NCBI GenBank assembly: GCA_030426825.1
Contig: JAUHXX010000006.1
Span: 1-33,339, forward strand
Length of the DNA: 33,339 nt
Direction of reading: 5' to 3'
Origin: Bacteroidia bacterium
GTDB taxonomy: Bacteria; Bacteroidota; Bacteroidia; Flavobacteriales_D; Crocinitomicaceae
Made by a program: the position numbers and the translations under genes. The stretch's first letter is position 1, and the number at the start of each line of letters is the position of its first letter. The notes beneath the pieces were generated by a model, which saw only the letters and a list, made by a program, of their open reading frames with translations, did not search any database and was not told the DNA's origin. Shown in pieces: positions 14,599-30,815 of this stretch.

Positions 14599-15369
14599 AT
14601 GTTTGATCATTTAAAAGATAAAATAAAAACGATTCCTCACAATCCTGGGGTTTATCAATATTATGATAAATCAGGAAAGATCATTTATGTCGGAAAGGCT
14701 AAAAACTTAAAAAAAAGGGTAGCATCTTATTTCACTAAATCGCAGGATAATGGTAAAACATTGATGCTCATTAAGCGTATCCAAGATATTAAATATCTAG
14801 TGGTAGATACTGAAATGGATGCGCTCTTATTGGAGAACAATTTAATTAAGAAGTATCAGCCTAAGTATAACATCCAACTTAAGGATGATAAAACCTATCC
14901 CTGGATTGTCATTAAGAATGAGGCGTTCCCAAGAATCTTTAAAACAAGAAGAGTTATTAAAGACGGCTCCAAATATTTCGGTCCTTATGCCTCAGTGAAA
15001 ATGTTGTACACACTGATGGACTTGATTAAAGAAGTGTATCCCCTCAGGACTTGCAATCTCAATTTGTCACCTGAAGCAATTGAAAAAAAGCAATACAAGG
15101 TATGTTTAGAGTATCATATAGGGAATTGCAAGGGACCTTGTATTGGTGAAGAGTCAGTTGAGAATTATGAGCGTTATTTAGATGAGATTCGTAACATTTT
15201 AAAAGGCAATGTTTCAACCGTTATTTCTGCATTAAAAAATTGGATGAATGAACTTGCTACAGATTTAAAATTTGAAGAAGCGCAAGACATCAAAGAAAAG
15301 ATCCGATTGTTAGAAGGTTATTATTCAAAATCTGCAATTGTCAGCCCAACCATAATGTTGATGTCATGA
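14599..15369 (+). CDS. uvrC: excinuclease ABC subunit C, N-terminal part (frameshifted)
   Basis: GIY-YIG domain (NPGVYQYYDKSGKIIYVGKAKNLKKRVASYF), KYNIQLKDDKTYPWI, UVR segment. Reading frame breaks at ...SAIVSPTIMLMS*. Confidence 0.9.
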   Translation: MFDHLKDKIKTIPHNPGVYQYYDKSGKIIYVGKAKNLKKRVASYFTKSQDNGKTLMLIKRIQDIKYLVVDTEMDALLLENNLIKKYQPKYNIQLKDDKTYPWIVIKNEAFPRIFKTRRVIKDGSKYFGPYASVKMLYTLMDLIKEVYPLRTCNLNLSPEAIEKKQYKVCLEYHIGNCKGPCIGEESVENYERYLDEIRNILKGNVSTVISALKNWMNELATDLKFEEAQDIKEKIRLLEGYYSKSAIVSPTIMLMS

Positions 15370-16388
15370 CTATGGTAGAGGATGACAAATATGCTTATGT
15401 GAATTATTTGAAGATGAATAATGGTGCAATAATTCATGGCCACACTGTTGAGGTGAAAAAGAAATTGGATGAAAGCCCTGAGCAAATTATTCCCATTGTG
15501 TTGGTTGAAATGAGAGAACGCTTCGGATCAGAAGGAAAAGAGATTATCTGTGAGGCTGATATAGCTGAAGATTTCCCAAATCTCAAAATAACACATGCTC
15601 AACGAGGTGATAAAAAGGCATTGCTAGATTTATCGCTTCGCAACGCAAAATTTTACATGCTTGAAAAACACAAGCAAGAAAAGCTGGTGAACCCTGATCG
15701 TAATTTAGAACGCATCATGGAAACCATGAAGAAAGATTTAAGGTTGAAAGAATGGCCTACACATATAGAATGTTTTGATAATTCTAACTTTCAAGGAACC
15801 AATGCCGTTGCAGCTTGTGTTGTTTTTAAAAACGGAAAGCCATCAAAAAAAGATTATCGACATTTCAATATAAAAACGGTTACCGGCCCTGATGATTTCG
15901 CATCAATGGAAGAGGTGGTGTTTAGGAGATACCGGAGGCTATTAGACGAAGACCAGCCTTTACCTCAAGTAATCATAATTGATGGTGGAAAAGGACAGTT
16001 GAGTTCGGCCCTAAAATCAATTGATGCCTTAGGCTTAAGGGGTAAGATTACATTGGTAGGTATCGCTAAAAAGCTAGAGGAAATTTACTTCCCTGGAGAT
16101 TCGGTTCCTATTTACATTGACAAGCGTTCAGAATCTTTAAAAATAATTCAACATTTAAGAAATGAGGCGCACCGTTTTGGTATTACTCATCACCGAAATA
16201 AGCGAAGTAAAAATGCTTTAGGCACGGAACTTACCATGATTGCTGGTATAGGAGAAAAAACCGCCCAGGATTTAATCACTGCTTTTAAATCTGTAAAACG
16301 CGTTCGAGAAGCTGACCCAGAGCAAATCGAAAAAGTTATTGGAAAAGCCAAGGCGAAAATTTTGCTGGAGTATCTTCAGAAGAATTAG
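15366..16388 (+). CDS. uvrC: excinuclease ABC subunit C, C-terminal part (frameshifted)
   Basis: IECFDNSNFQGTNAVAACVVF, IIDGGKGQLSSA, HRFGITHHRNKR and HhH tail (TMIAGIGEKTAQDLITAF) of UvrC in the -1 frame relative to the upstream ORF. Confidence 0.9.
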   Translation: MTMVEDDKYAYVNYLKMNNGAIIHGHTVEVKKKLDESPEQIIPIVLVEMRERFGSEGKEIICEADIAEDFPNLKITHAQRGDKKALLDLSLRNAKFYMLEKHKQEKLVNPDRNLERIMETMKKDLRLKEWPTHIECFDNSNFQGTNAVAACVVFKNGKPSKKDYRHFNIKTVTGPDDFASMEEVVFRRYRRLLDEDQPLPQVIIIDGGKGQLSSALKSIDALGLRGKITLVGIAKKLEEIYFPGDSVPIYIDKRSESLKIIQHLRNEAHRFGITHHRNKRSKNALGTELTMIAGIGEKTAQDLITAFKSVKRVREADPEQIEKVIGKAKAKILLEYLQKN

Positions 16389-18668: not shown

Positions 18669-19928
18669 ATGAATAAACTAGTACTCTTTTTAGGCGCAGC
18701 TATCATGTTGGTGTCCCTAAACTCTTGCAAAAAATATAAAAATAAAGAAGTCTATGCGAATGTACCCGTGTACATGAGCTACTCTGATTTTAGAAGTTCA
18801 TTTGAATATTATGACGGAATGCATCCTATGACAGCTCCCGGAAATATCTTTATTCATAATGACATCATTTTTATTTCTGATGAAGACAAAGGCATTCATA
18901 TTGTTAACAATTCAAACAAATCCGCACCTTATTTTATTGGGTTTATGAATATTCCTGGGAATACGCAAATAGCTGTGAAAAACAATATTTTATATGCGAA
19001 CAGCTTTATTGATTTACTGACAATTGATATCTCAAATATTCAGGATCCGAAATTGGTGAACCGCATGTATGACGTGTTCTCATATTGTACGCCAGCAATT
19101 AATGACGAATATCCAACGGCTGATATCAATAAAGAAAATGGAGTTGTTATTGCATGGGAAATTGAAAAAACAAAGGATGTTTCAGGTTTTGGGGCTAAAC
19201 TCTTTGCTAAAGATTGTGCTGAGTGCGAAAAAGAAGAAATTCAAACAAAATCAGCTTCTTCAATTCGAGTAAATTTAGCCGGTTCAAGAAGCCAGTTTGC
19301 AATTATTGATAATTACTTATATGCTATCGATAAAGGGAGCATTAAGTCCTTCAATGTTTCGAATTCAACAAGTCCGATTTTTGGTCATGAAAAGAAAACT
19401 TGGGATGAGCCCGAAACTCTTTTCCCAGAAGGTGATTATTTGTTTGTTGGAACAACAACAGGTATGAAAATTTATGATGCTGGTGCAGATAGAGATAATC
19501 CAAATTTTGTTTCTGAAATAGAGCATGTTGAATCATGTGATCCAGTTGTTGTTCAAGGAAACTATGCTTATTTAACGCTCAGAACCGGAAGCGATTGTGG
19601 CGGAATTGATGATGAATTACAAGTCATTGATATCGGAAATTTAAAGTTCCCAAAGTTGAAAGAACAATTTGATATGACAGACCCATATGGTTTGGCTGTT
19701 GACGGAAACTTACTATTTGTTTGTGATGGATCAGATGGATTAAAAGTATTTGACAATTCAAATCCGCTAGATTGTGGAGACAACTTGATGTATCACTTTC
19801 CAGCTGTACAAACTTCAGATATTATACTCAATAACGGAGCTGCTATTATGATCGCAGAAGAAGGGGTTTATCAGTATGATTATACAAACCCTAGCAATTT
19901 AACAATGATTAGCTTGCTTAGTTTCTAA
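18669..19928 (+). CDS. LVIVD-repeat (beta-propeller) lipoprotein
   Basis: Lipobox-like MLVSLNSC. Repeats IFISDEDKGIHIVNNSNKSAPYFIG, LYANSFIDLLTIDISNIQDPKLV, LFVCDGSDGLKVFDNSNP typical of LVIVD propellers. Confidence 0.85.
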   Translation: MNKLVLFLGAAIMLVSLNSCKKYKNKEVYANVPVYMSYSDFRSSFEYYDGMHPMTAPGNIFIHNDIIFISDEDKGIHIVNNSNKSAPYFIGFMNIPGNTQIAVKNNILYANSFIDLLTIDISNIQDPKLVNRMYDVFSYCTPAINDEYPTADINKENGVVIAWEIEKTKDVSGFGAKLFAKDCAECEKEEIQTKSASSIRVNLAGSRSQFAIIDNYLYAIDKGSIKSFNVSNSTSPIFGHEKKTWDEPETLFPEGDYLFVGTTTGMKIYDAGADRDNPNFVSEIEHVESCDPVVVQGNYAYLTLRTGSDCGGIDDELQVIDIGNLKFPKLKEQFDMTDPYGLAVDGNLLFVCDGSDGLKVFDNSNPLDCGDNLMYHFPAVQTSDIILNNGAAIMIAEEGVYQYDYTNPSNLTMISLLSF

Positions 19929-20010: not shown

Positions 20011-20427
20011 GTGACAATTGATACGAAAATATCGCATAAAGTTTTTAACTTTTTATCAGAAGAATTTGATAAAAAATATGAAAAATGTGAAAACAATGAA
20101 ACTTTAGATTCAATTCAGATATACAAAACGAAGGTTTTTATGGATAATATTGGAAGAATTAGCCGGTACTCTGATTCCGTCAAATTAAAATTAACTGAAT
20201 ACAGAAATTATAAAAGTCTAAAAGTGACCTTAGATGAAACGAAAGTGTTTTTAGTTTCTTTCTGTGGGGGAACGTTATTAACCTCAATGTTTTTTCTCTA
20301 TCATCAAAGTTTCGCCGCGATAATTCTAGGATTAGCTTTCGGAACGTATTTGTATGTAATAATTAGAAGATTGGTTAAAAAAGGGTTGATAATTTATATA
20401 GAAAAACTTATCTCTCAATCAAAATAA
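20011..20427 (+). CDS. hypothetical membrane protein (GTG start)
   Basis: 138-aa ORF with hydrophobic segments FLVSFCGGTLLTSMFFLY and FAAIILGLAFGTYLYVII. No family recognised. Confidence 0.55.
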   Translation: MTIDTKISHKVFNFLSEEFDKKYEKCENNETLDSIQIYKTKVFMDNIGRISRYSDSVKLKLTEYRNYKSLKVTLDETKVFLVSFCGGTLLTSMFFLYHQSFAAIILGLAFGTYLYVIIRRLVKKGLIIYIEKLISQSK

Positions 20428-20511
20428 ACCCATGCTGATTTCCATGATAATGTTTGTAAAGTAGTATTCTATCTGCTTTTCTTGGTACACCTTTTTTTTG
20501 GTAAGCCAGTC
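20408..20511 (-). pseudogene. decayed duplicate of the 3' end of the CLF-like ketoacyl synthase gene
   Basis: 20415-20497 aligns without gaps to 20686-20768 (76/83 identical by hand). Translates KKGVPRKADRILLYKHYHGNQHGFILIER versus KKGVPRKANRILIYNHYRGDQHGFILIERV. A 5-nt indel further upstream breaks the frame. Confidence 0.85.
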
Positions 20512-20649
20512 GGTTTGTTCGAGTGTTGTCATTATCGGTTCTACCGATAAGAACAATGTATCGAGAACAATTTGCTGAACTTCTAAAATGTTCTCGATAC
20601 AATCCAGATGAATTCACTTCATTCATTCACAGGATCACTCAAACAAACC
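20512..20649. repeat. 138-bp nested-palindrome element with imperfect terminal inverted repeats
   Basis: Ends GGTTTGTTCGAGTG (20512-20525) / CACTCAAACAAACC (20636-20649), 13/14 complementary. Internal hairpins TTATCGGT-TCT-ACCGATAA (20532-20550), TGTATCGAGAACA-N19-TGTTCTCGATACA (20557-20601) and ATGAAT-N7-ATTCAT. Confidence 0.8.
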
Positions 20650-20675: not shown

Positions 20676-21674
20676 CTAAACGCGTTCAATCAAAATAAAC
20701 CCATGCTGATCTCCACGATAATGGTTGTAAATGAGTATTCTATTTGCTTTTCTTGGCACACCTTTTTTCAGACAGTCAGCAGGTAATTGACCGGTTTCTA
20801 ATAATTGGGCACTCATCCAGCAAGCAAAGGCACTAGACGTTGGATATTCACCCACCAAATTTTTGAATTGATAAACAGATGTCTCTGAGAATTGTGTGGC
20901 CATATCATCATACCATTCATCTGATGCTGATGGACTAGTATAACCTAAAACGAGTGCATCGATATCTTCTTTTTTCAAGTTGTTTTTGCTGAGTAGATAA
21001 TTCAGTTTTTGATGGATATCTTCTCGAGATGGATAAGTGATTTGATCAACATCTAAAATTTTGGCAATCGCATTTTTAGATTGATTATTAAGAATAAACA
21101 TAGCAGATCCTTCGCCTGCAATAACTCCATTATTATACAATCCTAATAATCGATTGATGTTGAAATTACTTTCGTCAAATTCGTCTGCGGCTCCAACTAA
21201 ATAGGTGTTGTCTGTATGCTCTTCTAATAACATTTGTGCTCCAGCTAGGGCAGATTCAAAGGATAATCCTCCGCTTACATGGGTCGAATTATAGCCTGTT
21301 CGTTTTCCCATCAAGGCTAAATTACCAGCAACTGCATTTGCAGTGCTCTGCACAAAACTCGTTGGAGTCAAGGTTCCTTCTTCGTATTGGATGATCTGAT
21401 TTAGAAATTTAAAACAATCACCAAGTCCACCGTTTGCTGTACCTAAAATAATGCCGTCCAAATTGGGATGGTCTTTCAATAATGGAAGGCCGGCTCCAAT
21501 GCCTAACTTCACAACTTTACCCATTCTTCGGAGTAATCCCAATGGAATCAACTCCATATAGTTGGGTTCAACGGCTAAGAATTTTCCTTCATTAGCTGAT
21601 AGAATTTTTCCTTGGATGAAGGAATCATCTTGTGATTGTTGAGGTGATATGCAGGTCATCTGATGGATATACAT
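20676..21674 (-). CDS. ketoacyl synthase-like protein lacking the active-site Cys (chain-length-factor-like)
   Basis: Thiolase-fold features (GIILGTANGGLGDCFKFL, SFVQSTANAVAGNLAL, SFESALAGAQMLL, YLVGAADE) and operonic pairing with a complete KS. The segment aligning to KS TACSSS reads SGGLSF. Confidence 0.85.
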   Translation of the reverse strand: MYIHQMTCISPQQSQDDSFIQGKILSANEGKFLAVEPNYMELIPLGLLRRMGKVVKLGIGAGLPLLKDHPNLDGIILGTANGGLGDCFKFLNQIIQYEEGTLTPTSFVQSTANAVAGNLALMGKRTGYNSTHVSGGLSFESALAGAQMLLEEHTDNTYLVGAADEFDESNFNINRLLGLYNNGVIAGEGSAMFILNNQSKNAIAKILDVDQITYPSREDIHQKLNYLLSKNNLKKEDIDALVLGYTSPSASDEWYDDMATQFSETSVYQFKNLVGEYPTSSAFACWMSAQLLETGQLPADCLKKGVPRKANRILIYNHYRGDQHGFILIERV

Positions 21675-21675
21675 A

Positions 21676-22863
21676 TCAAACTTGACTAATGATTAATGAG
21701 CTACAATTTCCTGCAAATCCGAACGAATTGCTCAATACATGTTTGATTTCTTTTGAGCTTTGATTTGCAATTGGGCCGGGGTAGCCTTCAATGGCCTGAT
21801 CAACGTGTAAACTTTGGTACAATTCGTTGTTTTGCAAAGCAAGAATGCTGAACACTGCCTCAATTGCTCCGGCCGCACCTAAAGTATGACCTGTGTATGA
21901 TTTGGTAGAATTATAAGGAGGTAGTTCGCCTAAAGTTTCTGTGAGGCCTCGCAGCTCAGTTATGTCGTTGTTTTCTGTTGCTGTTCCGTGTGCATTCACA
22001 TAATCTATGTCTGCGCCTTTAAGCTGGGCGGTATGCAATGCTTCAGTGATACAAGCTCTGACTCCAATCGCTTCTTCAGATAAAGAAGAGGCGTGGTAAG
22101 CATCATTACTGTTTCCGTATCCTTTAATTTCAGCGTAAATGGTTTTACCGGCAGCTAAGTCTTCATTTTCTAAAACTAAATAAGCCGCGCCTTCTCCTAA
22201 ATTTAAACCTTTTCGATTCTGATCAAATGGTTGACAAATCTCGGGCGAAAATATCTGCAATGCGTTAAATCCGTTGACCGTGAATTTAGCTAGGGCATCT
22301 GTTCCGCCAACAATCATTCGTTTAGCGCGTCCAGATTTAATCAGTTTGGCACCTAACATAATGGCATTCGCAGAAGAAGAACATGCCGTGTTGATGACAT
22401 CCGTATAGCCTTTGATTTGATATTTCTTAGCAATCTTCAATAAATGAGCATTGCAGGTGTAGGCATCAATATGTTCTGAAGGATGTTCAATTGCAGTAGC
22501 ATCCTCAAACAAATGCTTGGTTTCACACATGCCCCCAACAGTTGATCCTGAAATAAAACCGGTTTCAAAGTTAGAAAGATCGTCAGCACTTAATTGGGCA
22601 TTTTGAATGGCTTCTTCAAATGCAGTGATTGCAAGTAAATCTGTTCTGCTGAGCCCCTTTTTATCCGCAAAAGAAATGTTTTCAAGTAATGCTGCATTAC
22701 TCAAATTGACTTCACCAAAAAGGTAGTTTTTTTGATAATTGGATGATAAAAACTGTGCTTTGCGAATCCCAGTTTTACCCGATTTTAATGATTGATGGTT
22801 TTCAAGTACATTGTTACCAATGGCAGATATAACTCCAATTCCAGTAACAACAACTTTACTCAT
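21676..22863 (-). CDS. beta-ketoacyl-ACP synthase (KAS I/II, FabF-like)
   Basis: VVVTGIGVISAIGNN, INTACSSSANAIMLGA (Cys), VNAHGTATENND (His), KSYTGHTLGAAGAIEAV (His). Confidence 0.95.
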   Translation of the reverse strand: MSKVVVTGIGVISAIGNNVLENHQSLKSGKTGIRKAQFLSSNYQKNYLFGEVNLSNAALLENISFADKKGLSRTDLLAITAFEEAIQNAQLSADDLSNFETGFISGSTVGGMCETKHLFEDATAIEHPSEHIDAYTCNAHLLKIAKKYQIKGYTDVINTACSSSANAIMLGAKLIKSGRAKRMIVGGTDALAKFTVNGFNALQIFSPEICQPFDQNRKGLNLGEGAAYLVLENEDLAAGKTIYAEIKGYGNSNDAYHASSLSEEAIGVRACITEALHTAQLKGADIDYVNAHGTATENNDITELRGLTETLGELPPYNSTKSYTGHTLGAAGAIEAVFSILALQNNELYQSLHVDQAIEGYPGPIANQSSKEIKHVLSNSFGFAGNCSSLIISQV

Positions 22864-23129
22864 TATCCTTTGGTCTTATTCGCTTCGATATAGTCAGCCA
22901 TGTGATTGACGTCTACCAAAATTTTACGCCCCTCTTGAGGATTATTAATTTTAATACCGTATTCACGCTCAAGTAAAACAACCAGCTCCAGTGAATCAAT
23001 TGAGTCAAGACCTAATCCGTCTCCGAAAAGAGGGGTGTCATCACCAACGCTTTCAGGTTCTACACCCATTAAATTACAGTAATTAATGATGTGTTTTTTA
23101 ATTTCTAATTTTAATTCTTCTGAAGCCAT
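22863..23129 (-). CDS. acyl carrier protein
   Basis: 88 aa, GDGLGLDSIDSLELVVLLEREYGI with a 4'-phosphopantetheine Ser in LDSIDSLEL. Confidence 0.93.
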   Translation of the reverse strand: MASEELKLEIKKHIINYCNLMGVEPESVGDDTPLFGDGLGLDSIDSLELVVLLEREYGIKINNPQEGRKILVDVNHMADYIEANKTKG

Positions 23130-23131
23130 TG

Positions 23132-24403
23132 TTAGATTAATTTTTCAATTCGAAGTTTCAATATTGTTAAGAATTGACATGTAAATATAAAGATTACTAG
23201 AAAAGTAATAACCGGAAGCAATGCCATCCAATCTCCTTTTTCTAAAAATAAGATGTAGAATCCTTCTAGGCACCAATAGAGTGGTGAGAACGATCCAATT
23301 GTTTGCATATAGTCAGGCATAATAAAAAGTGGAACCCAAACTCCGCCAATTGCCGCAAATATGATGACCAGTACAGCACCAATTCCGTTGGCTTGTACTT
23401 GACTTTTGGTGTAGGTACCAATTAAGAGTGCGAAACTCACTGCGGACAAACTACATAAAATTGAAATCAGAATAAATCCAATAATATTTGAAGGTAGCAC
23501 TAAGGTTGGTAAGCCCATAACAGGGAATAAGAATTTACCCAGGGAGAAAATCAAGGTTAATTGAAGCAATGCGACCACTACAAAAACAACCACCTTACTC
23601 GTTAAGACCACACCGAAACTTGTAGGCAAGGTTTTTAAACGCTGAAAACTACCAGATGTTCTTTCGTTGACAATGTTTCCTCCCAACGAAATCACCATAA
23701 AAAACATAGCAAAAATGGTCCATGCCGGAACGTTATGTTGAGTTGAGTTGGGATTTATTTTACCTCCATTAATTTGAGCAGGAATACGATTTATAGCCAC
23801 CTGATTATTCTTCATATTCTCCATTAATTCCGGTGGAGTTTCCATTTCCATCTCAGCAAAAACAGAGGAAATCATTAACTCACTTTCTACCATGCTTAAA
23901 TATGAATTTAAGATGCCAACTATCGATAAAGTAAAGTTGTCTTGTAGCACAGGGTCATAGTACAAATCAAGCTCGGGTGATTGAATAGTAGATCCATTAT
24001 CAACAGTCTCTGTTACTCCTAATTCTGACATCATCAAGTCACTAGTGCTTTTCGCTTTGGCTTCTAATTTTTCTGAGAAATCAGGAGAAATATACAGTGC
24101 CATTTGCATATCCTGAGCTAACAATTCATCTTTCAATTCTGCTTCTGAAACATCTGTGTGATGTACAATAAACATTTTTGAATCATCAAGCAGTTCAATG
24201 AGTTTTTGAGACGAACCTCCTTCATCATCATTGCCAATAAGCACAGAAATATTGTTTTCATTGACAATTCGGTAAGCACTGTCTTGCACCAGTGTAATGA
24301 TGAGCACTAAAATTACTGGCAACACAAAAAGCATGATAAGACCGAGAAAGTCGCTTTTCAACTGTCTTATTTCTTTCAATATGGCCGCTCTTAATTTAAC
24401 CAT
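23132..24403 (-). CDS. ABC-2 type transporter permease
   Basis: N-terminal TM, large extracytoplasmic domain, FAMFFMVISLGGNIVNERTSGSFQRLKTLPTS and C-terminal TM bundle. Overlaps the ATPase gene by 8 bp. Confidence 0.92.
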   Translation of the reverse strand: MVKLRAAILKEIRQLKSDFLGLIMLFVLPVILVLIITLVQDSAYRIVNENNISVLIGNDDEGGSSQKLIELLDDSKMFIVHHTDVSEAELKDELLAQDMQMALYISPDFSEKLEAKAKSTSDLMMSELGVTETVDNGSTIQSPELDLYYDPVLQDNFTLSIVGILNSYLSMVESELMISSVFAEMEMETPPELMENMKNNQVAINRIPAQINGGKINPNSTQHNVPAWTIFAMFFMVISLGGNIVNERTSGSFQRLKTLPTSFGVVLTSKVVVFVVVALLQLTLIFSLGKFLFPVMGLPTLVLPSNIIGFILISILCSLSAVSFALLIGTYTKSQVQANGIGAVLVIIFAAIGGVWVPLFIMPDYMQTIGSFSPLYWCLEGFYILFLEKGDWMALLPVITFLVIFIFTCQFLTILKLRIEKLI

Positions 24404-25136
24404 TGGTAAGACTCAGAAATAATTCGGTCAACGACTTTGACTCCGTTTGATTCATCAATTGATCAATGGTGTCATTCGCTACAATTTCTCCCTTGTTGAG
24501 CAAAATAATGTTGTCACACAGTTGTTCAGCTTCATCAAGATGATGCGAAGAATAAATTAAGGTGATGCCCAATTCATTTAATTTTTTGAGGTAATTAATG
24601 ATGGCATGTTTGTTTTGAACATCAACTCCTGCCGTGGGTTCATCTAAAAATAGAATTGATGGTTGATGTAGGATGCTCAAGATGAGATTAACCCTTCTTT
24701 TCATACCTCCTGAAAATCCTTTTACTTTTTTATTGCCAACATCCAAAAGGTCAAATTCAGTAATCAATAATTTGGCTCTTTCTTGAATTTGATCTTTGCT
24801 CAATTCATACAAAGCACCGAAGTATTCTATATTTTGCATGAGGGTGAGATCTTCATAAAGGGCATATTCTTGCGGAACGAAACCAATTTGCTTTTTCAAA
24901 TCGTTGCCTTCAAAAGTTGATCCATCATCTTTAGTGAATTTTACTGATCCAGAAGAAGGTTCTAGAATTCCACAAATGATTGAAATAAGTGTTGATTTTC
25001 CTGCTCCGTTTGGTCCAAGAATTCCTGTTCTACTTCCTTTAGGGATGTTAAAACTGATAGATTTTAAACTATCAATTTGCGATTTCTTGTACCGTTTTTT
25101 AAGATCGGTAATTGCTATAGATTCAAAAGTTGACAC
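24396..25136 (-). CDS. ABC transporter ATP-binding protein
   Basis: Walker A GILGPNGAGKSTLI, signature VKGFSGGMKRRVNL, Walker B SILFLDEPTAGVD, H-loop YSSHHLDEAE. Confidence 0.97.
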   Translation of the reverse strand: MSTFESIAITDLKKRYKKSQIDSLKSISFNIPKGSRTGILGPNGAGKSTLISIICGILEPSSGSVKFTKDDGSTFEGNDLKKQIGFVPQEYALYEDLTLMQNIEYFGALYELSKDQIQERAKLLITEFDLLDVGNKKVKGFSGGMKRRVNLILSILHQPSILFLDEPTAGVDVQNKHAIINYLKKLNELGITLIYSSHHLDEAEQLCDNIILLNKGEIVANDTIDQLMNQTESKSLTELFLSLTNG

Positions 25137-26152
25137 TATTTCAGTTTCAATTTTCTAAGTGAGGTAAAGGCATCTTTTTCAACTTCTGATATGGATACCA
25201 TTAAGTCTGCAACAGCGTCAAAGTCTTTTTGTTCGGTTAATCTTCCTTTATAAATACCCGCCATTTGTACCGCAGCATCTCTCCACATGTCTCCAGCTTT
25301 CGTAATTTTTTCAGATATACCCAGTAATCTATCATCTTGGACATAGGCTACGGCTTGTTCTAAAAACGCGGCGTATAAAAACCTGAATCCACCTCCACCT
25401 GTTCCAATTTCTTCTTGCATTCGGATGATTTGACCTAGATATAAACTTGCAGCTTTCAGATCACCTTGAAGTCCAAGTTTTCTTACCTTTTTTGCCGTAA
25501 ATTTTATCCCGTTAACACCAGCAATACCAGTAGGGATTTTCAACATGTCAAAGGCATTTCTTTTGATGCCTTTAATGATTCCCTTGCGCATTAATTCATC
25601 ACTGATTTCGCCTACATTTTCCGGATAGTAAACATGACCTTTAGGTGCTAAAACGCCTTTTGCGAATCGCGCACGCTCCATTTGATAACTGTTCAAACGC
25701 GTAACATCTTCCATTACCGGATCACTCACTAGGTATTCGTCTCCTTCAATTCCATAAACAATTAAGTTATGCGCATTAAAATGAAAGCGATATTCTTTTG
25801 GGAAGTAATCGAGATGAAAAACGCCAACTTGACAACCAACCGGAATGCCTTGAGCTATTTTATCATTTAAATACTTGATGCCTGCTTTAGGATCTTTGAA
25901 TTTCTTCTTTTTCATGTCGATTTTCAAAGCTGAGCAGGTTCTTGAAAAAACTGCACCAGGCATACTCCTGTATGCAATTCCAGGACCACCTTGAACTTTC
26001 AAAAAAGGGATATGAATGTAAAACAGGCCTGATCCGATACCAAAAGCCAAAGGCTCTGTTATCTTATCAATTCCTTGATGTTTGAGTAGACTCGTTATCA
26101 CTCCATTTTCGCAATGGGCGGTTTGAACGTGTTTGTAGTTTTCGACTTTCAC
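25136..26152 (-). CDS. BtrH N-terminal-domain-like protein (putative acyl transferase/peptidase fold)
   Basis: HCENGVITSLLKHQGI, FGIGSGLFYIHIPF, FHFNAHNLIVYGIEGDEYLVSDPV resemble BtrH_N/cysteine-peptidase-fold proteins of butirosin-type and flexirubin loci. Confidence 0.75.
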   Translation of the reverse strand: MKVENYKHVQTAHCENGVITSLLKHQGIDKITEPLAFGIGSGLFYIHIPFLKVQGGPGIAYRSMPGAVFSRTCSALKIDMKKKKFKDPKAGIKYLNDKIAQGIPVGCQVGVFHLDYFPKEYRFHFNAHNLIVYGIEGDEYLVSDPVMEDVTRLNSYQMERARFAKGVLAPKGHVYYPENVGEISDELMRKGIIKGIKRNAFDMLKIPTGIAGVNGIKFTAKKVRKLGLQGDLKAASLYLGQIIRMQEEIGTGGGGFRFLYAAFLEQAVAYVQDDRLLGISEKITKAGDMWRDAAVQMAGIYKGRLTEQKDFDAVADLMVSISEVEKDAFTSLRKLKLK

Positions 26153-26550
26153 TATCCTTTAAAATTTTTTAATTCATCAACAGTGATGTCAAATATTTCG
26201 GCGTATTTATTGAGTTTTTCTTCCGATAACTTTTTGAAAACAGCTGGCTTAAAGTGTTTTTTAACAGTAATTTTCCATTGACCAGAGTAGGCGGCTAGAA
26301 TGCTAACATCCATCACGGATTTTTCCATGAAATAAAATATTGGACTTTTAGTTCCTGCTGCTACTGCTTTTCTTGCTGCTTCTGTTTTTTCGTTGAAATC
26401 TTCCCAAGCATTGTCTAGCGCTTGTTTCTTAACTTCCCAGCCTTCACTTAAAGCAGTGTCATATTTATTGTCTTCGTTTTTGACATAATGCACCTCTCTT
26501 GTGAAGTTTTCAAGAGCACTTTTATCTTGAGGAAGGTCTTTCTTTTTCAT
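26152..26550 (-). CDS. small conserved-looking protein of unknown function in the dialkylresorcinol operon
   Basis: 132 aa, 1-nt overlap with the BtrH-like gene, adjacent to darB start/stop. No recognised domain. Confidence 0.75.
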   Translation of the reverse strand: MKKKDLPQDKSALENFTREVHYVKNEDNKYDTALSEGWEVKKQALDNAWEDFNEKTEAARKAVAAGTKSPIFYFMEKSVMDVSILAAYSGQWKITVKKHFKPAVFKKLSEEKLNKYAEIFDITVDELKNFKG

Positions 26551-27693
26551 CTAACAAACAGTTAGCATGGCATACATGTATGAAAATCTTGAAGATTCAG
26601 GCACCACTAATAAAATCCGTTCACCTTTTTTAAGCTTACCGCTATTGAACAGTTCGTCAACCATTAAATAGATTGAGCCCGCTCCAACATTGCCTGTATA
26701 TGCCAAATTGGTAAACCACTTCTCTTTTGGAATAGGCATGCCGTTATCAATCAAAATGGATTCAATTTTATCTTCAAAAAAGAATGATGATAGGTGAGGT
26801 AAAAAGTGATCAACATTGTCCACTGTTTCTCCTCTATCTTTAAAGATTTCAACCAGTCGATCGAATCCTAGTTTAACGATATTTTCGCTCAATAATTTTA
26901 CATCTTGTTTGATGCTCATTACCGATTTATCGAATACTTCTTCAGGTGTAAAATCTAAATAACTTCTCAATGAACCATCTTCATTTTTATCAGAGGCCAT
27001 GTACATGCAAGCTGGTTGATTATTGGCGTAAGAAGCACCATCAACCCAATCAATTTTTAATGAAATTCCGTCACTTGATGGCTTATCTTGCAATAAAAAA
27101 GCGGCTGCTCCATCAGACAACATCCATCTTAAAAAGTCTTTCTCAAACGCTAAGTGCGGATTAGCCTCTAGCTCTGAAAGTTTAGAAATTTCTTCTTCGT
27201 ACTGTTCTGATCTTAATATTTTAGCTAAACGTTCAGAACCCGTTGTGACCGCATTTTTTTTATCGCCAACCTTTACGGCATTATAAGCATATTTCAACGC
27301 ATGCATTCCAGAGCAGCAAACCCCTGAAGGAGAAACAACCTCAATCGCATTTGATTCAGGCAAATGACCATGAACCATAACAGCATGAGAGGGCATCATT
27401 TGGTCGGGAGTTGATGTTCCGCAAGCAATTAAATCTATTGATTGAAGACCTTCTGTTTTGTTATCAAATAAATTACGAATAGCAAGAGCTGCCATTTCAG
27501 CATTCGTGTGGGTGGTTTTACCATCCTTAGTTAATGCATAATAGCGTTGTTTAATTTTATTATTTCGTAAAACGAGTAATCTAGACTTTGATTTTTTCCC
27601 ATTAATCAAACCTAGGTATTCTTCCATCTCATCATTAGAAACAACGTCATTGGGTAAAAAATTTGCTGTTTTTGTAATGTAAACCTCTCCCAT
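26551..27693 (-). CDS. darB: ketoacyl-ACP synthase III-like dialkylresorcinol biosynthesis protein DarB
   Basis: EVYITKTANFLPNDVVSNDEMEEYLGLINGKKSKSRLLVLRNNKIKQRYYAL and VVSPSGVCCSGMHALKYAY (Cys). Near darA. Confidence 0.85.
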   Translation of the reverse strand: MGEVYITKTANFLPNDVVSNDEMEEYLGLINGKKSKSRLLVLRNNKIKQRYYALTKDGKTTHTNAEMAALAIRNLFDNKTEGLQSIDLIACGTSTPDQMMPSHAVMVHGHLPESNAIEVVSPSGVCCSGMHALKYAYNAVKVGDKKNAVTTGSERLAKILRSEQYEEEISKLSELEANPHLAFEKDFLRWMLSDGAAAFLLQDKPSSDGISLKIDWVDGASYANNQPACMYMASDKNEDGSLRSYLDFTPEEVFDKSVMSIKQDVKLLSENIVKLGFDRLVEIFKDRGETVDNVDHFLPHLSSFFFEDKIESILIDNGMPIPKEKWFTNLAYTGNVGAGSIYLMVDELFNSGKLKKGERILLVVPESSRFSYMYAMLTVC

Positions 27694-27749
27694 TTGTAAT
27701 TAAAAAATTTGTGTAAAAGTAATCATTTATCTATAGATTCAAATGCCAG

Positions 27750-29423
27750 TTAATTTGGTTGTTTAAGCCATATTTTGTTCAATTGAGTAGCAATTTCCTT
27801 GTTATAGTCTATTCCACCATCTATATTTTGATTTTCAGATGGAGAATTTTCCAACATAAATTGATACGGATTAATGGCTCCTTTTTCATAGGAGCCGGTT
27901 TTTATGAATTGTGTATATCTCATAATTTCAGTAGCAATAGACTCTAATAATTGAAGATTATCAACAACTTTTACAATCAACTGATTTCCAGTATAATTGA
28001 TTTTTAAATCTAGATGTAAATCTTCAAGGAATTTAATTTCAAAAGGGTCGATATAAAAATTGCTGTGATCTTGCTCTTGAAACTTACCCCAATCCATGAA
28101 CAATTGTTGCACGCTTTGGTTCAGCTTTCCAAATTTTTGACCAGGACTGTCTTCGTTAAAAAAGAGTGCCCTCAGCACATCCATATCAGTATATCCACCG
28201 TTGAAAAACAGTAATGAAGGAATAGCCCAATAATTTGCCCAATCCCAAAAAATCTTTGGAATCATTATTTGACTTTGACCAAATAGTGGATATTTATTGG
28301 TGTAGATATGTAGCCAATTTTCAAACATGGCTTTGTGTGTGCGTTCATAGACGATAGTTCGTACATGAATATCCTCCTGGTTTAAATCTCGTGTAATCAA
28401 ATCACTGATCCAACTGTTCGACATTCCTATAAAATCCGTTCCAGGAGAATAGAAAGGGTCTGCAAATACACCAGCGTCCCCAACGGCACACCAACGATCA
28501 TGAGAATATAATTGCTTGGCCCCATGAGCATATTTTTTTAAGACCATAAAGTCGAGCAGGTCATCTTTTTTTTCTTCAATTACAGCAGCACATTGTGGCT
28601 CATTTTCTTTTAACCATTCTAGTGCTTTATCAAATCGATTGATTTTATTGAATTCGACATGCCTTGGATCTGCAACAATGCCTACAGAAGTATTTCCTGA
28701 GGATAATGGTATTAACCAAACCCAATATCCAGGTCCCATTAGGTGATTGGTACTCAACCTTCTCAGTCCAGGTTTTAGTTTTGACTTCCAAGCAGAGTTA
28801 TCAGACCAATCTGTAACATCAATTTCACCTTTAACTCTGAACCAGCAGGTATTGATATTGTGCTCAACAGATTCGGTTAACTCAAGTTTACGTTTTAAAA
28901 AAGCTAGTCTTCCGGTGGCATCAACCAACCATTTTGCTTTATAATTATTGGTTTGATTTTCAGTTTCAACGCTGATGCTGTGACCTGCTTCATCAATTTC
29001 TGCTCCGGTTACAGTTGCACCTTGTAAAATCGCATTGCCCAATTCCTTATTTCTTTTAAGCAATTCATTTTCAAATAGTCCTCTATCTAATTGATGACTT
29101 GGAACAGGGGGTGGGTTTATCGGGCCGATTTCTGCACGTTGATCAATTTGATCTCTTTTACTTGGAGTTAGAAAAAATCGCAATCCGTGTTTTGGCAATT
29201 GATCTTGATCTAAATATTCTTTTAAACCGAGAATTTCTCGTAAATAATAGGTGCCGAGTTCTACTGTAGATTCTCCAACTTTGTGAGCAGAATCAACTGG
29301 GTTTGTGGCGTTTTTTTCTGCAATTAAAATACTCGCTTCTGGATTTGCTTTTTTAAGTTGTAATCCTAAGCATAATCCTGCAAGACCGCCGCCAGCTATA
29401 ATGATATCAAAATTGTTCTCCAT
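27750..29423 (-). CDS. FAD-dependent oxidoreductase, tryptophan-halogenase-like family
   Basis: FDIIIAGGGLAGLCLGLQL (FAD binding), HKVGEST, GPGYWVWLIPLSSGNTSVGIV (WxWxIP-like), VGDAGVFADPFYSPGTDFI. Confidence 0.82.
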   Translation of the reverse strand: MENNFDIIIAGGGLAGLCLGLQLKKANPEASILIAEKNATNPVDSAHKVGESTVELGTYYLREILGLKEYLDQDQLPKHGLRFFLTPSKRDQIDQRAEIGPINPPPVPSHQLDRGLFENELLKRNKELGNAILQGATVTGAEIDEAGHSISVETENQTNNYKAKWLVDATGRLAFLKRKLELTESVEHNINTCWFRVKGEIDVTDWSDNSAWKSKLKPGLRRLSTNHLMGPGYWVWLIPLSSGNTSVGIVADPRHVEFNKINRFDKALEWLKENEPQCAAVIEEKKDDLLDFMVLKKYAHGAKQLYSHDRWCAVGDAGVFADPFYSPGTDFIGMSNSWISDLITRDLNQEDIHVRTIVYERTHKAMFENWLHIYTNKYPLFGQSQIMIPKIFWDWANYWAIPSLLFFNGGYTDMDVLRALFFNEDSPGQKFGKLNQSVQQLFMDWGKFQEQDHSNFYIDPFEIKFLEDLHLDLKINYTGNQLIVKVVDNLQLLESIATEIMRYTQFIKTGSYEKGAINPYQFMLENSPSENQNIDGGIDYNKEIATQLNKIWLKQPN

Positions 29424-30341
29424 TTATTGCTTCATTGATGGAATACCTGAGTAAAAAAATTGTTGCTTTTTCGCTTTGATCTTTTTCTGCGTAAAAGGTC
29501 GCACCAATATCGAATATACCGTGACAATAATAGGTGAAACTATGAATAAGGCGAAAACAAGATAGCATCTAAAGCCTACAAGCCAACGTTTTCGTGCTGA
29601 GGGCTTTTCTTTTTTAATGATTTTATTCGCCCACATTTGGAATAGCTTTTTTGCTCTGCCTTCAATGAATAAAACTGTTGTAGTCAAGTGGAATTTTCCT
29701 GCATTTAGAAAACCATCTTGAAGACCTTTGAGATTTGATTCATTCAATTTGCTTAGGGTCATCTTACCATATTCTGAAGCAAAAGCAATGTCTTCATCCG
29801 AAACTCCAGGTTTTGGGAAAATCCCCCATTTTTTAGTCTTTTTTCCTGTTGACATCCAATGCAGAATCGCTATAGCTGACACTAAATTTGAGCTTCGGTC
29901 TGCTAATGGAATATTCCCAACAAGATTGGCACCCGCTTCTTTCAGTTGCTTGATTACTGAATCTTGAGAATTGAGCCACATGTTTCTGGCGCCAATTATG
30001 GTAATCACATCTGTGCCTTTAAGTTTCGCTTTAAATGCTTCATCATGCAATAAAGAATTGGCCGGAATAGATGGAGAAAGAAACCAGGGTTGATAACCGA
30101 AAACTATCAAATCATACTGTTCATGCTTATAACTAATCGGTTTTATATCGGCCGGGATTTCAAGAACAGATTCTGGCATTGCATCATAGAATCTGTCTGT
30201 TTTCCAAGGAAATTCGAATACTTTTAATGGCTCAACTATGACACGATCAACATCATATTCAGAAAAAGGAGATATAAAGTTTTCTAAAATCTCGTGTAAT
30301 TGACCAGATTGAGAATAATTGATGAGCAAGATTTTTTTCAT
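29424..30341 (-). CDS. darA: dialkylresorcinol condensing enzyme DarA
   Basis: KILLINYSQSGQLHEI, YDLIVFGYQPWFLSPSIP, IIGARNMWLNSQ, GIFPKPGVSDEDI. Linked with darB, ACP and KS genes. Confidence 0.87.
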   Translation of the reverse strand: MKKILLINYSQSGQLHEILENFISPFSEYDVDRVIVEPLKVFEFPWKTDRFYDAMPESVLEIPADIKPISYKHEQYDLIVFGYQPWFLSPSIPANSLLHDEAFKAKLKGTDVITIIGARNMWLNSQDSVIKQLKEAGANLVGNIPLADRSSNLVSAIAILHWMSTGKKTKKWGIFPKPGVSDEDIAFASEYGKMTLSKLNESNLKGLQDGFLNAGKFHLTTTVLFIEGRAKKLFQMWANKIIKKEKPSARKRWLVGFRCYLVFALFIVSPIIVTVYSILVRPFTQKKIKAKKQQFFYSGIPSMKQ

Positions 30342-30344
30342 GAG

Positions 30345-30815
30345 CTACTGCAGTTCTTTTGGGTCTAAAATTGAAGAACTCCGAGCATAATCTCTAATGA
30401 TTTGTTGAAGTTGATCTTTCAATGAGCTAAAGTTAGCAACTATATGTTTTTTATCTTCATCAATATTGCCATTGTATTTCAGAATTTTTGGACTATTTTC
30501 TTGTACAGATAATCTAAGAAAGCGATATTCCGTATTTTTTGGATATTTCTCAATAGCAGTTTCAAGCAGATCAACCCCCTGCTTAAACGTATCAAGTTTC
30601 TCTTTCATTCCTTTTAAAAAAGATGCTTTTTTAGCAATCAGCGCTCCTTTATAGGCTTTCACCAGGGTAGAGGATTTCACTTTTTCAAGTTCCTGAATTT
30701 TCGAATCTAAAATGGCCTGCTCTTCACTTTCCAAGGCTTTGTAGTAAGCTCTTTGGTCTACTTGCGCCCCAGCGTATGTAGAAAAAATCAACAGCAGAAT
30801 CAAGAGGTTTTTCAT
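30345..30815 (-). CDS. hypothetical secreted protein, first gene of the dar operon
   Basis: Signal peptide MKNLLILLLIFSTYAGAQ. Stop lies 3 nt before darA start. Confidence 0.75.
   Translation of the reverse strand: MKNLLILLLIFSTYAGAQVDQRAYYKALESEEQAILDSKIQELEKVKSSTLVKAYKGALIAKKASFLKGMKEKLDTFKQGVDLLETAIEKYPKNTEYRFLRLSVQENSPKILKYNGNIDEDKKHIVANFSSLKDQLQQIIRDYARSSSILDPKELQ

Follow-up and report, generated by a model that had tools for sequence, protein, structure and literature searches.

Genes of the operon

We begin with what lies at the locus. The window, that is, the whole stretch of 33,339 nucleotides that was analysed, corresponds to the complete contig C101 in a Crocinitomicaceae draft genome (402 contigs, 3.6 Mb, 3.4% contamination). 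Between positions 20676 and 30815 it carries an operon of eleven minus-strand genes, several of which overlap by a short stretch; no gap exceeds 56 bp. A first-pass annotation of this DNA had counted ten genes but listed eleven; the list itself holds, with every gene present on the minus strand. The genes are given below in their order from 30815 to 20676, followed by two features to the left of the operon.

30345..30815, minus: operon gene 1, secreted-looking protein of 156 aa whose N-terminus is hydrophobic and signal-like (homologs 35-46% identical)
29424..30341, minus: DarA, aromatase of dialkylresorcinols, with a flavodoxin-like domain and a helical C-terminus (collinearity, predicted fold)
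27750..29423, minus: 557-aa FAD enzyme between darA and darB, a relative of flavin-dependent halogenases (similarity to PltA and CmlS, motifs)
26551..27693, minus: DarB, DAR ketosynthase/cyclase (NF053539, active-site residues)
26152..26550, minus: DarG-family flexirubin biosynthesis protein, 132 aa, Azoarcus darD by position (NF053545)
25136..26152, minus: DarH, acyltransferase related to BtrH and candidate ester-forming enzyme (NF053550, invariant Cys-His-Asp)
24396..25136, minus: ABC transporter ATPase, Azoarcus darF by position (ABC_tran E=4e-33; same position in relatives)
23132..24403, minus: ABC-2 permease, Azoarcus darI by position (ABC2_membrane_3 E=1.4e-34)
22863..23129, minus: acyl carrier protein (ACP), darC (PP-binding E=2e-10; D42-S43 invariant)
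21676..22863, minus: ketosynthase (KS), FabF-like, darJ (PRK09185/fabF models E<1e-82; C161, H292 and H326 invariant)
20676..21674, minus: CLF-like KS without active-site cysteine, Azoarcus darK by position (Ketoacyl-synt_2 E=7e-11)
20408..20626, minus: remnant, second copy of the CLF 3' end (direct repeat; its translation matches the CLF C-terminus)
18669-19928: LVIVD-repeat gene, left of the operon (conserved neighbour)

Promoter and terminator scans gave results at or below chance. The protein of the first gene has no Pfam match; its homologs (35-46% identity) stand directly upstream of darA in several relatives, with split and with joined loci.

DarB scores 614.6 bits against the curated model NF053539 (cut-off 550), and its C126, H300 and N329 are invariant among 48 sequences. 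By its sequence it is a dar operon, with a DAR-clade DarB whose active-site residues are intact. The 132-aa gene, which the first-pass annotation had left unplaced, is DarG, a standard part of flexirubin loci (181 bits against NF053545, cut-off 170; the predicted structure is of low confidence, pLDDT 61), and the gene it had described as BtrH_N-like is a second standard part, DarH, with 445 bits against NF053550 (cut-off 300) and with C14, H128 and D144 invariant among 51 sequences. These two names are those of the NCBI models; gene letters differ between sources, and the genes in the same positions in Azoarcus are called darD and darE. The CLF-like KS lacks the active-site cysteine, and 22 homologs show no conserved Cys, while the KS keeps Cys161, His292 and His326; the pair therefore probably acts as a KS/CLF with the ACP.

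DarA (305 aa) has no match in Pfam or NCBIfam, and neither DarA nor DarH has a meaningful sequence match in the PDB. The protein is collinear with the darA that stands beside darB in relatives (37-58% identity); here it is near darB, but with the one halogenase-like gene in between. Its AlphaFold model (pLDDT 77) has a flavodoxin/WrbA-like domain followed by long helices. GPCR entries among the fold matches (rmsd 18-30) were discarded as flavodoxin-fusion constructs or long-helix artefacts. On position, homology in relatives and predicted fold, the assignment fits the published DAR-aromatase DarA.

Location of the aryl-polyene genes

The first-pass annotation had observed that no aryl-polyene ammonia-lyase, AMP ligase, ketoreductase, dehydratase, thioesterase or acyltransferase is encoded in the operon, and had proposed to search the rest of the genome for them. 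The observation is right for the operon, and a search of the genome by family and by region finds all of these enzyme classes elsewhere in the genome, on a second contig, C97. The genome has two aromatic ammonia-lyases, and the one on C97 (8991-10514) is FlxA (791 bits against NF053541, cut-off 700). FlxB (the ketoreductase) and LolA2 on the same contig also match curated models. Around FlxA are a KS, an ACP, a lipid A-type acyltransferase (Lip_A_acyltrans), a FabZ-like dehydratase, a 4HBT thioesterase and more KS, ACP and CLF genes, together with a polysaccharide deacetylase, a FabA-like dehydratase, a glycosyltransferase, a carotenoid-isomerase-like gene and an MMPL-acyltransferase-methyltransferase fusion. 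The candidate for the coumarate AMP/CoA ligase (FlxY) is a 249-aa AMP-binding fragment at the contig end, where Crocinitomix has a full homolog of 447 aa in the same place. As the draft is fragmented and 3.4% contaminated, the assignment of C97 to the same genome rests on the similar GC of the two contigs (0.32-0.39 and 0.35-0.37), on the resemblance of both loci to those of Crocinitomix and on a flank that is conserved in congeners.

We consider how often the two halves occur together in 150 Crocinitomicaceae genomes, counting only matches above the curated cut-off. (At E<=0.001, DarB or FlxA models match in 141-147 genomes; these matches are mostly weak and paralog-like, probably FabH and HutH, and are left out.) DarB is found in 34 of the 150 genomes and FlxA in 36, with both in 33. 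One DarB genome lacks a full-score FlxA and carries a fragment of it at the edge of a contig; G008 is the only well-completed genome that has FlxA without DarB and DarH. The two genes lie within 25 kb on one contig in about 21 genomes and are clearly split in about 9 of the 33: in G077 they are 396 kb apart on one contig, with the flx genes themselves divided, and in G130 they lie deep inside separate contigs. Whether joined or split, most mapped dar loci keep the collinear order darA-darB-darG-darH-ATPase-permease-ACP-KS-CLF. This order is broken in G033, G048 and G013, which keep only darA and darB together, and also in G077 and G019.

Comparison with known dar and flx loci

Among the closest known systems is the dar operon of Azoarcus sp. 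BH72 (arcuflavin; azo0283-0293), with the order darA-B-D-E-F-(G-H)-I-C-J-K, a darE described as a "BtrH-like peptidase" and a DarA named DAR-aromatase (PMC3949708). Both operons have darA, darB, a small conserved protein, a BtrH-like protein, ABC ATPase, permease, ACP, KS and the last protein in the same order, and in both organisms the polyene genes are not all linked. The Azoarcus operon differs in having no halogenase, in two toxin-antitoxin-like genes between its ATPase and permease, and in serving a polyene of the xanthomonadin type. What the first-pass annotation described as a compact operon lacking most aryl-polyene enzymes is the standard dar operon, in the Azoarcus order. A survey of DAR clusters found the DAR genes within or beside polyene genes in 9 of 16 genomes (PMC3949708).

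In Chitinophaga pinensis the resorcinol genes darB-darA (Cpin_6850-6851) and the polyene genes flxA-flxY (Cpin_1853-1877) are unlinked, and assays identified FlxA as a tyrosine ammonia-lyase and FlxY as a coumarate-CoA ligase (PMC3992019). Compared at the level of the loci, the present genome shares the two separate sites, FlxA and FlxB, and has a candidate for the AMP-ligase function; C. pinensis, however, belongs to another branch of the Bacteroidota, and its pigment, C43H54O4, has no halogen. In Flavobacterium johnsoniae, whose darB is needed for flexirubin (McBride et al. 2009, as cited in PMC3992019), the dar and flx genes differ from ours in forming one 37-kb flexirubin cluster. Another close system is Crocinitomix catalasitica ATCC 23190 (dar operon L119; flx locus L115, L212), which has the identical eleven-gene order, halogenase-like gene included, and whose flx locus adjoins the same backbone genes as here. 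Its dar operon, in contrast, is at another chromosomal site, and DarB is 72% and the halogenase-like protein 55-56% identical.

The split pathway and its probable product

Combining these loci, we find it very likely that the operon is the dar half of a pathway to the orange pigment flexirubin that is split between two chromosomal loci. The first-pass annotation had offered such a split as one of two readings, and the flx set on C97 bears it out. In the proposed pathway, DarB would condense and cyclise two fatty-acid-type intermediates and DarA would aromatise the product to a 2,5-dialkylresorcinol; published work demonstrates both steps for homologs. An ACP-bound acyl precursor is probably provided or extended by the ACP/KS/CLF trio. 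On C97, the flx locus would make the aryl-polyene acid out of tyrosine, with FlxA and the AMP ligase acting first. DarH probably forms the ester by passing the ACP-bound polyene on to a hydroxyl of the resorcinol, and its invariant Cys14, His128 and Asp144 are what one would expect of a BtrH-type, papain-like transacylase; a different protein, FlxW, has been proposed as the ligase by Schoner et al. (PMC3992019). Transport of the pigment to the outer membrane would probably fall to the ABC pair, LolA2 and the MMPL-type exporter encoded on C97, and the halogenase-like enzyme probably halogenates a phenolic ring in the pigment.

It could be asked whether the two loci are separate at all, or whether a real chromosome that joins them, as in F. 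johnsoniae, has been broken by the assembly. The assembly is a fragmented draft and about 21 relatives do have the joined arrangement. Of the refuting condition named by the first-pass annotation, the half on relatives holds, in that they do carry the full set nearby; the other half, an assembly gap here, is contradicted by the flanks. One contig holds both sides of the operon (20.7 kb and 2.5 kb), and in all three same-genus genomes the LVIVD-repeat gene of the left flank stands 94-136 bp from yicC, the neighbour on the right, with no operon between. None of the three has a full-score DarB or FlxA, a DarH or the MMPL fusion. As these two genes are nearly adjacent in congeners that lack both loci, the operon sits alone at a clean site. 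It is thus an insertion (or a loss in the others) at a site bounded by a conserved terminator-like stretch on one side and by the sequence immediately preceding yicC on the other. On C97 the flx block likewise ends at conserved backbone on its right, a group of genes (OmpA-like, 446 aa, 235 aa, 446 aa) that is also the flank in Crocinitomix and that the congeners have with no flx genes beside it. Crocinitomix, moreover, carries its two loci on separate large contigs. An artefact of assembly is therefore extremely improbable. Just outside the operon, a direct repeat of 83 nt, 92% identical, joins positions 20415-20497 to 20686-20768 inside the last gene; the truncated CLF copy that it marks looks like a trace left by an earlier copy or by a recombination event.

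The other reading in the first-pass annotation was that this minimal set makes a different product, for instance a resorcinol esterified with a short polyketide. The operon's own KS, CLF and ACP would then build the polyketide. These three are indeed distinct from those of C97, and the acyltransferase-like DarH is encoded alongside them. The same trio, however, is found in dar blocks that lie right beside flx genes in relatives, which makes it part of the flexirubin pathway. The operon has no ketoreductase or dehydratase, the flx set is present in the same genome, and a full-score DarB nearly always comes with FlxA, the single exception being the genome with the FlxA fragment. We consider a different product very unlikely; the most likely product of the split pathway is a flexirubin.

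The halogenase-like gene

We turn our attention to the uncommon feature of the operon, the gene between darA and darB. The best solved relatives of its 557-aa protein are the halogenases PltA (E=4.6e-18, PDB) and CmlS (E=1.8e-11). Its GGGLAG (GxGxxG) and WxWxIP motifs do not vary among 13 aligned homologs, while 99-100% of 92 keep W234, W236 and K78; K78 is placed as the equivalent of the catalytic lysine by the PltA alignment alone. The WxWxIP motif is usually taken as a halogenase signature. The protein passes the Trp_halogenase Pfam model with a score of 37.7 over a threshold of 21, while the CmlS model of NCBIfam gives 73.7 bits against a cut-off of 900.

A gene of this family stands between darA and darB here, in Crocinitomix, in a Flammeovirgaceae MAG and in Aureispira (loci L119, L129, L148, L155 and L165), and 43 of the 79 loci that carry one have darA, darB, darG, darH or flxA within 10 kb. 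It is present in six of the 36 DarB- or FlxA-positive Crocinitomicaceae, and in four of these it lies at a distance from the dar operon. Chlorinated flexirubins are known, and their chlorination patterns are mentioned in PMC3992019; none of the papers searched ties flexirubin chlorination to a halogenase gene.

The gene suggests a halogenated flexirubin. We propose tentatively, and at somewhat less than even confidence, that it represents an uncharacterised family of flexirubin halogenases across the Bacteroidota, present only in some producers, and that this variant of the operon marks a halogenated flexirubin. A credible but less likely alternative is another flavin enzyme, such as a hydroxylase or oxidase that acts on the resorcinol or the polyene. 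It would agree with the shortfall against the NCBIfam halogenase models, none of which reaches its cut-off, with the matches to geranylgeranyl reductases and like flavoproteins, and with the nearly half of the relatives that have no core dar or flx gene within 10 kb. Against it are the identity of the closest solved structures as halogenases and the conservation of both the WxWxIP motif and the near-invariant lysine.

Implications

The operon is ordinary, one of an already-known type with one accessory gene worth testing. Aryl-polyene genes missing from beside a dar operon are no sign of a new product, as flexirubin loci are often split, and cluster mining on single contigs would miscall such split loci. 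The halogenase-like gene provides a testable candidate for the halogenation of the pigment.

Sequences beside the dar operon

To the left of the dialkylresorcinol (dar) operon, UvrC is divided between two open reading frames that overlap each other:

14599-15369, separate ORF, GIY-YIG/UVR part of UvrC
15366-16388, separate ORF, RNaseH/HHH part of UvrC

In five relatives, by comparison, UvrC is a single frame of 605-624 aa, and the break may be a frameshift, of sequencing or mutational origin. An ORF of 138 aa (20011-20427), for which the Pfam search gives no match, lies in the stretch that separates the LVIVD-repeat gene from the operon; the corresponding intergenic gap in three congeners that have no dar or flx loci is too small to contain it. 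At 20408-20626, just beyond the operon end, the 3' end of the CLF occurs a second time as a remnant, with an 83-nt repeat of 92% identity; it may be a recombination scar or the leftover of an earlier dar copy.

Related genes on other contigs and in other genomes

The contig that carries the flx (aryl-polyene) genes in the same draft genome (C97, loci L003 and L004) also encodes a 1271-aa protein in which MMPL, acyltransferase and methyltransferase parts are fused, and has a carotenoid-isomerase-like gene; both are kept next to flx genes in relatives.

Six Crocinitomicaceae genomes (G071, G043, G128, G108, G001 and G047, Crocinitomix catalasitica ATCC 23190) contain DarB-like matches of 368-405 bits, below the DarB cut-off of 550 bits. 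The open frames holding these matches are 540-650 aa long and are possibly fused StlD/DarB-type ketosynthases belonging to another pathway. G008, a well-completed genome of the family, has the tyrosine ammonia-lyase FlxA above its cut-off (C91:27396-28886), and a search of this genome finds neither a full-score DarB nor DarH, nor a homolog of the halogenase-like protein. The product of G008 may be a free aryl polyene.
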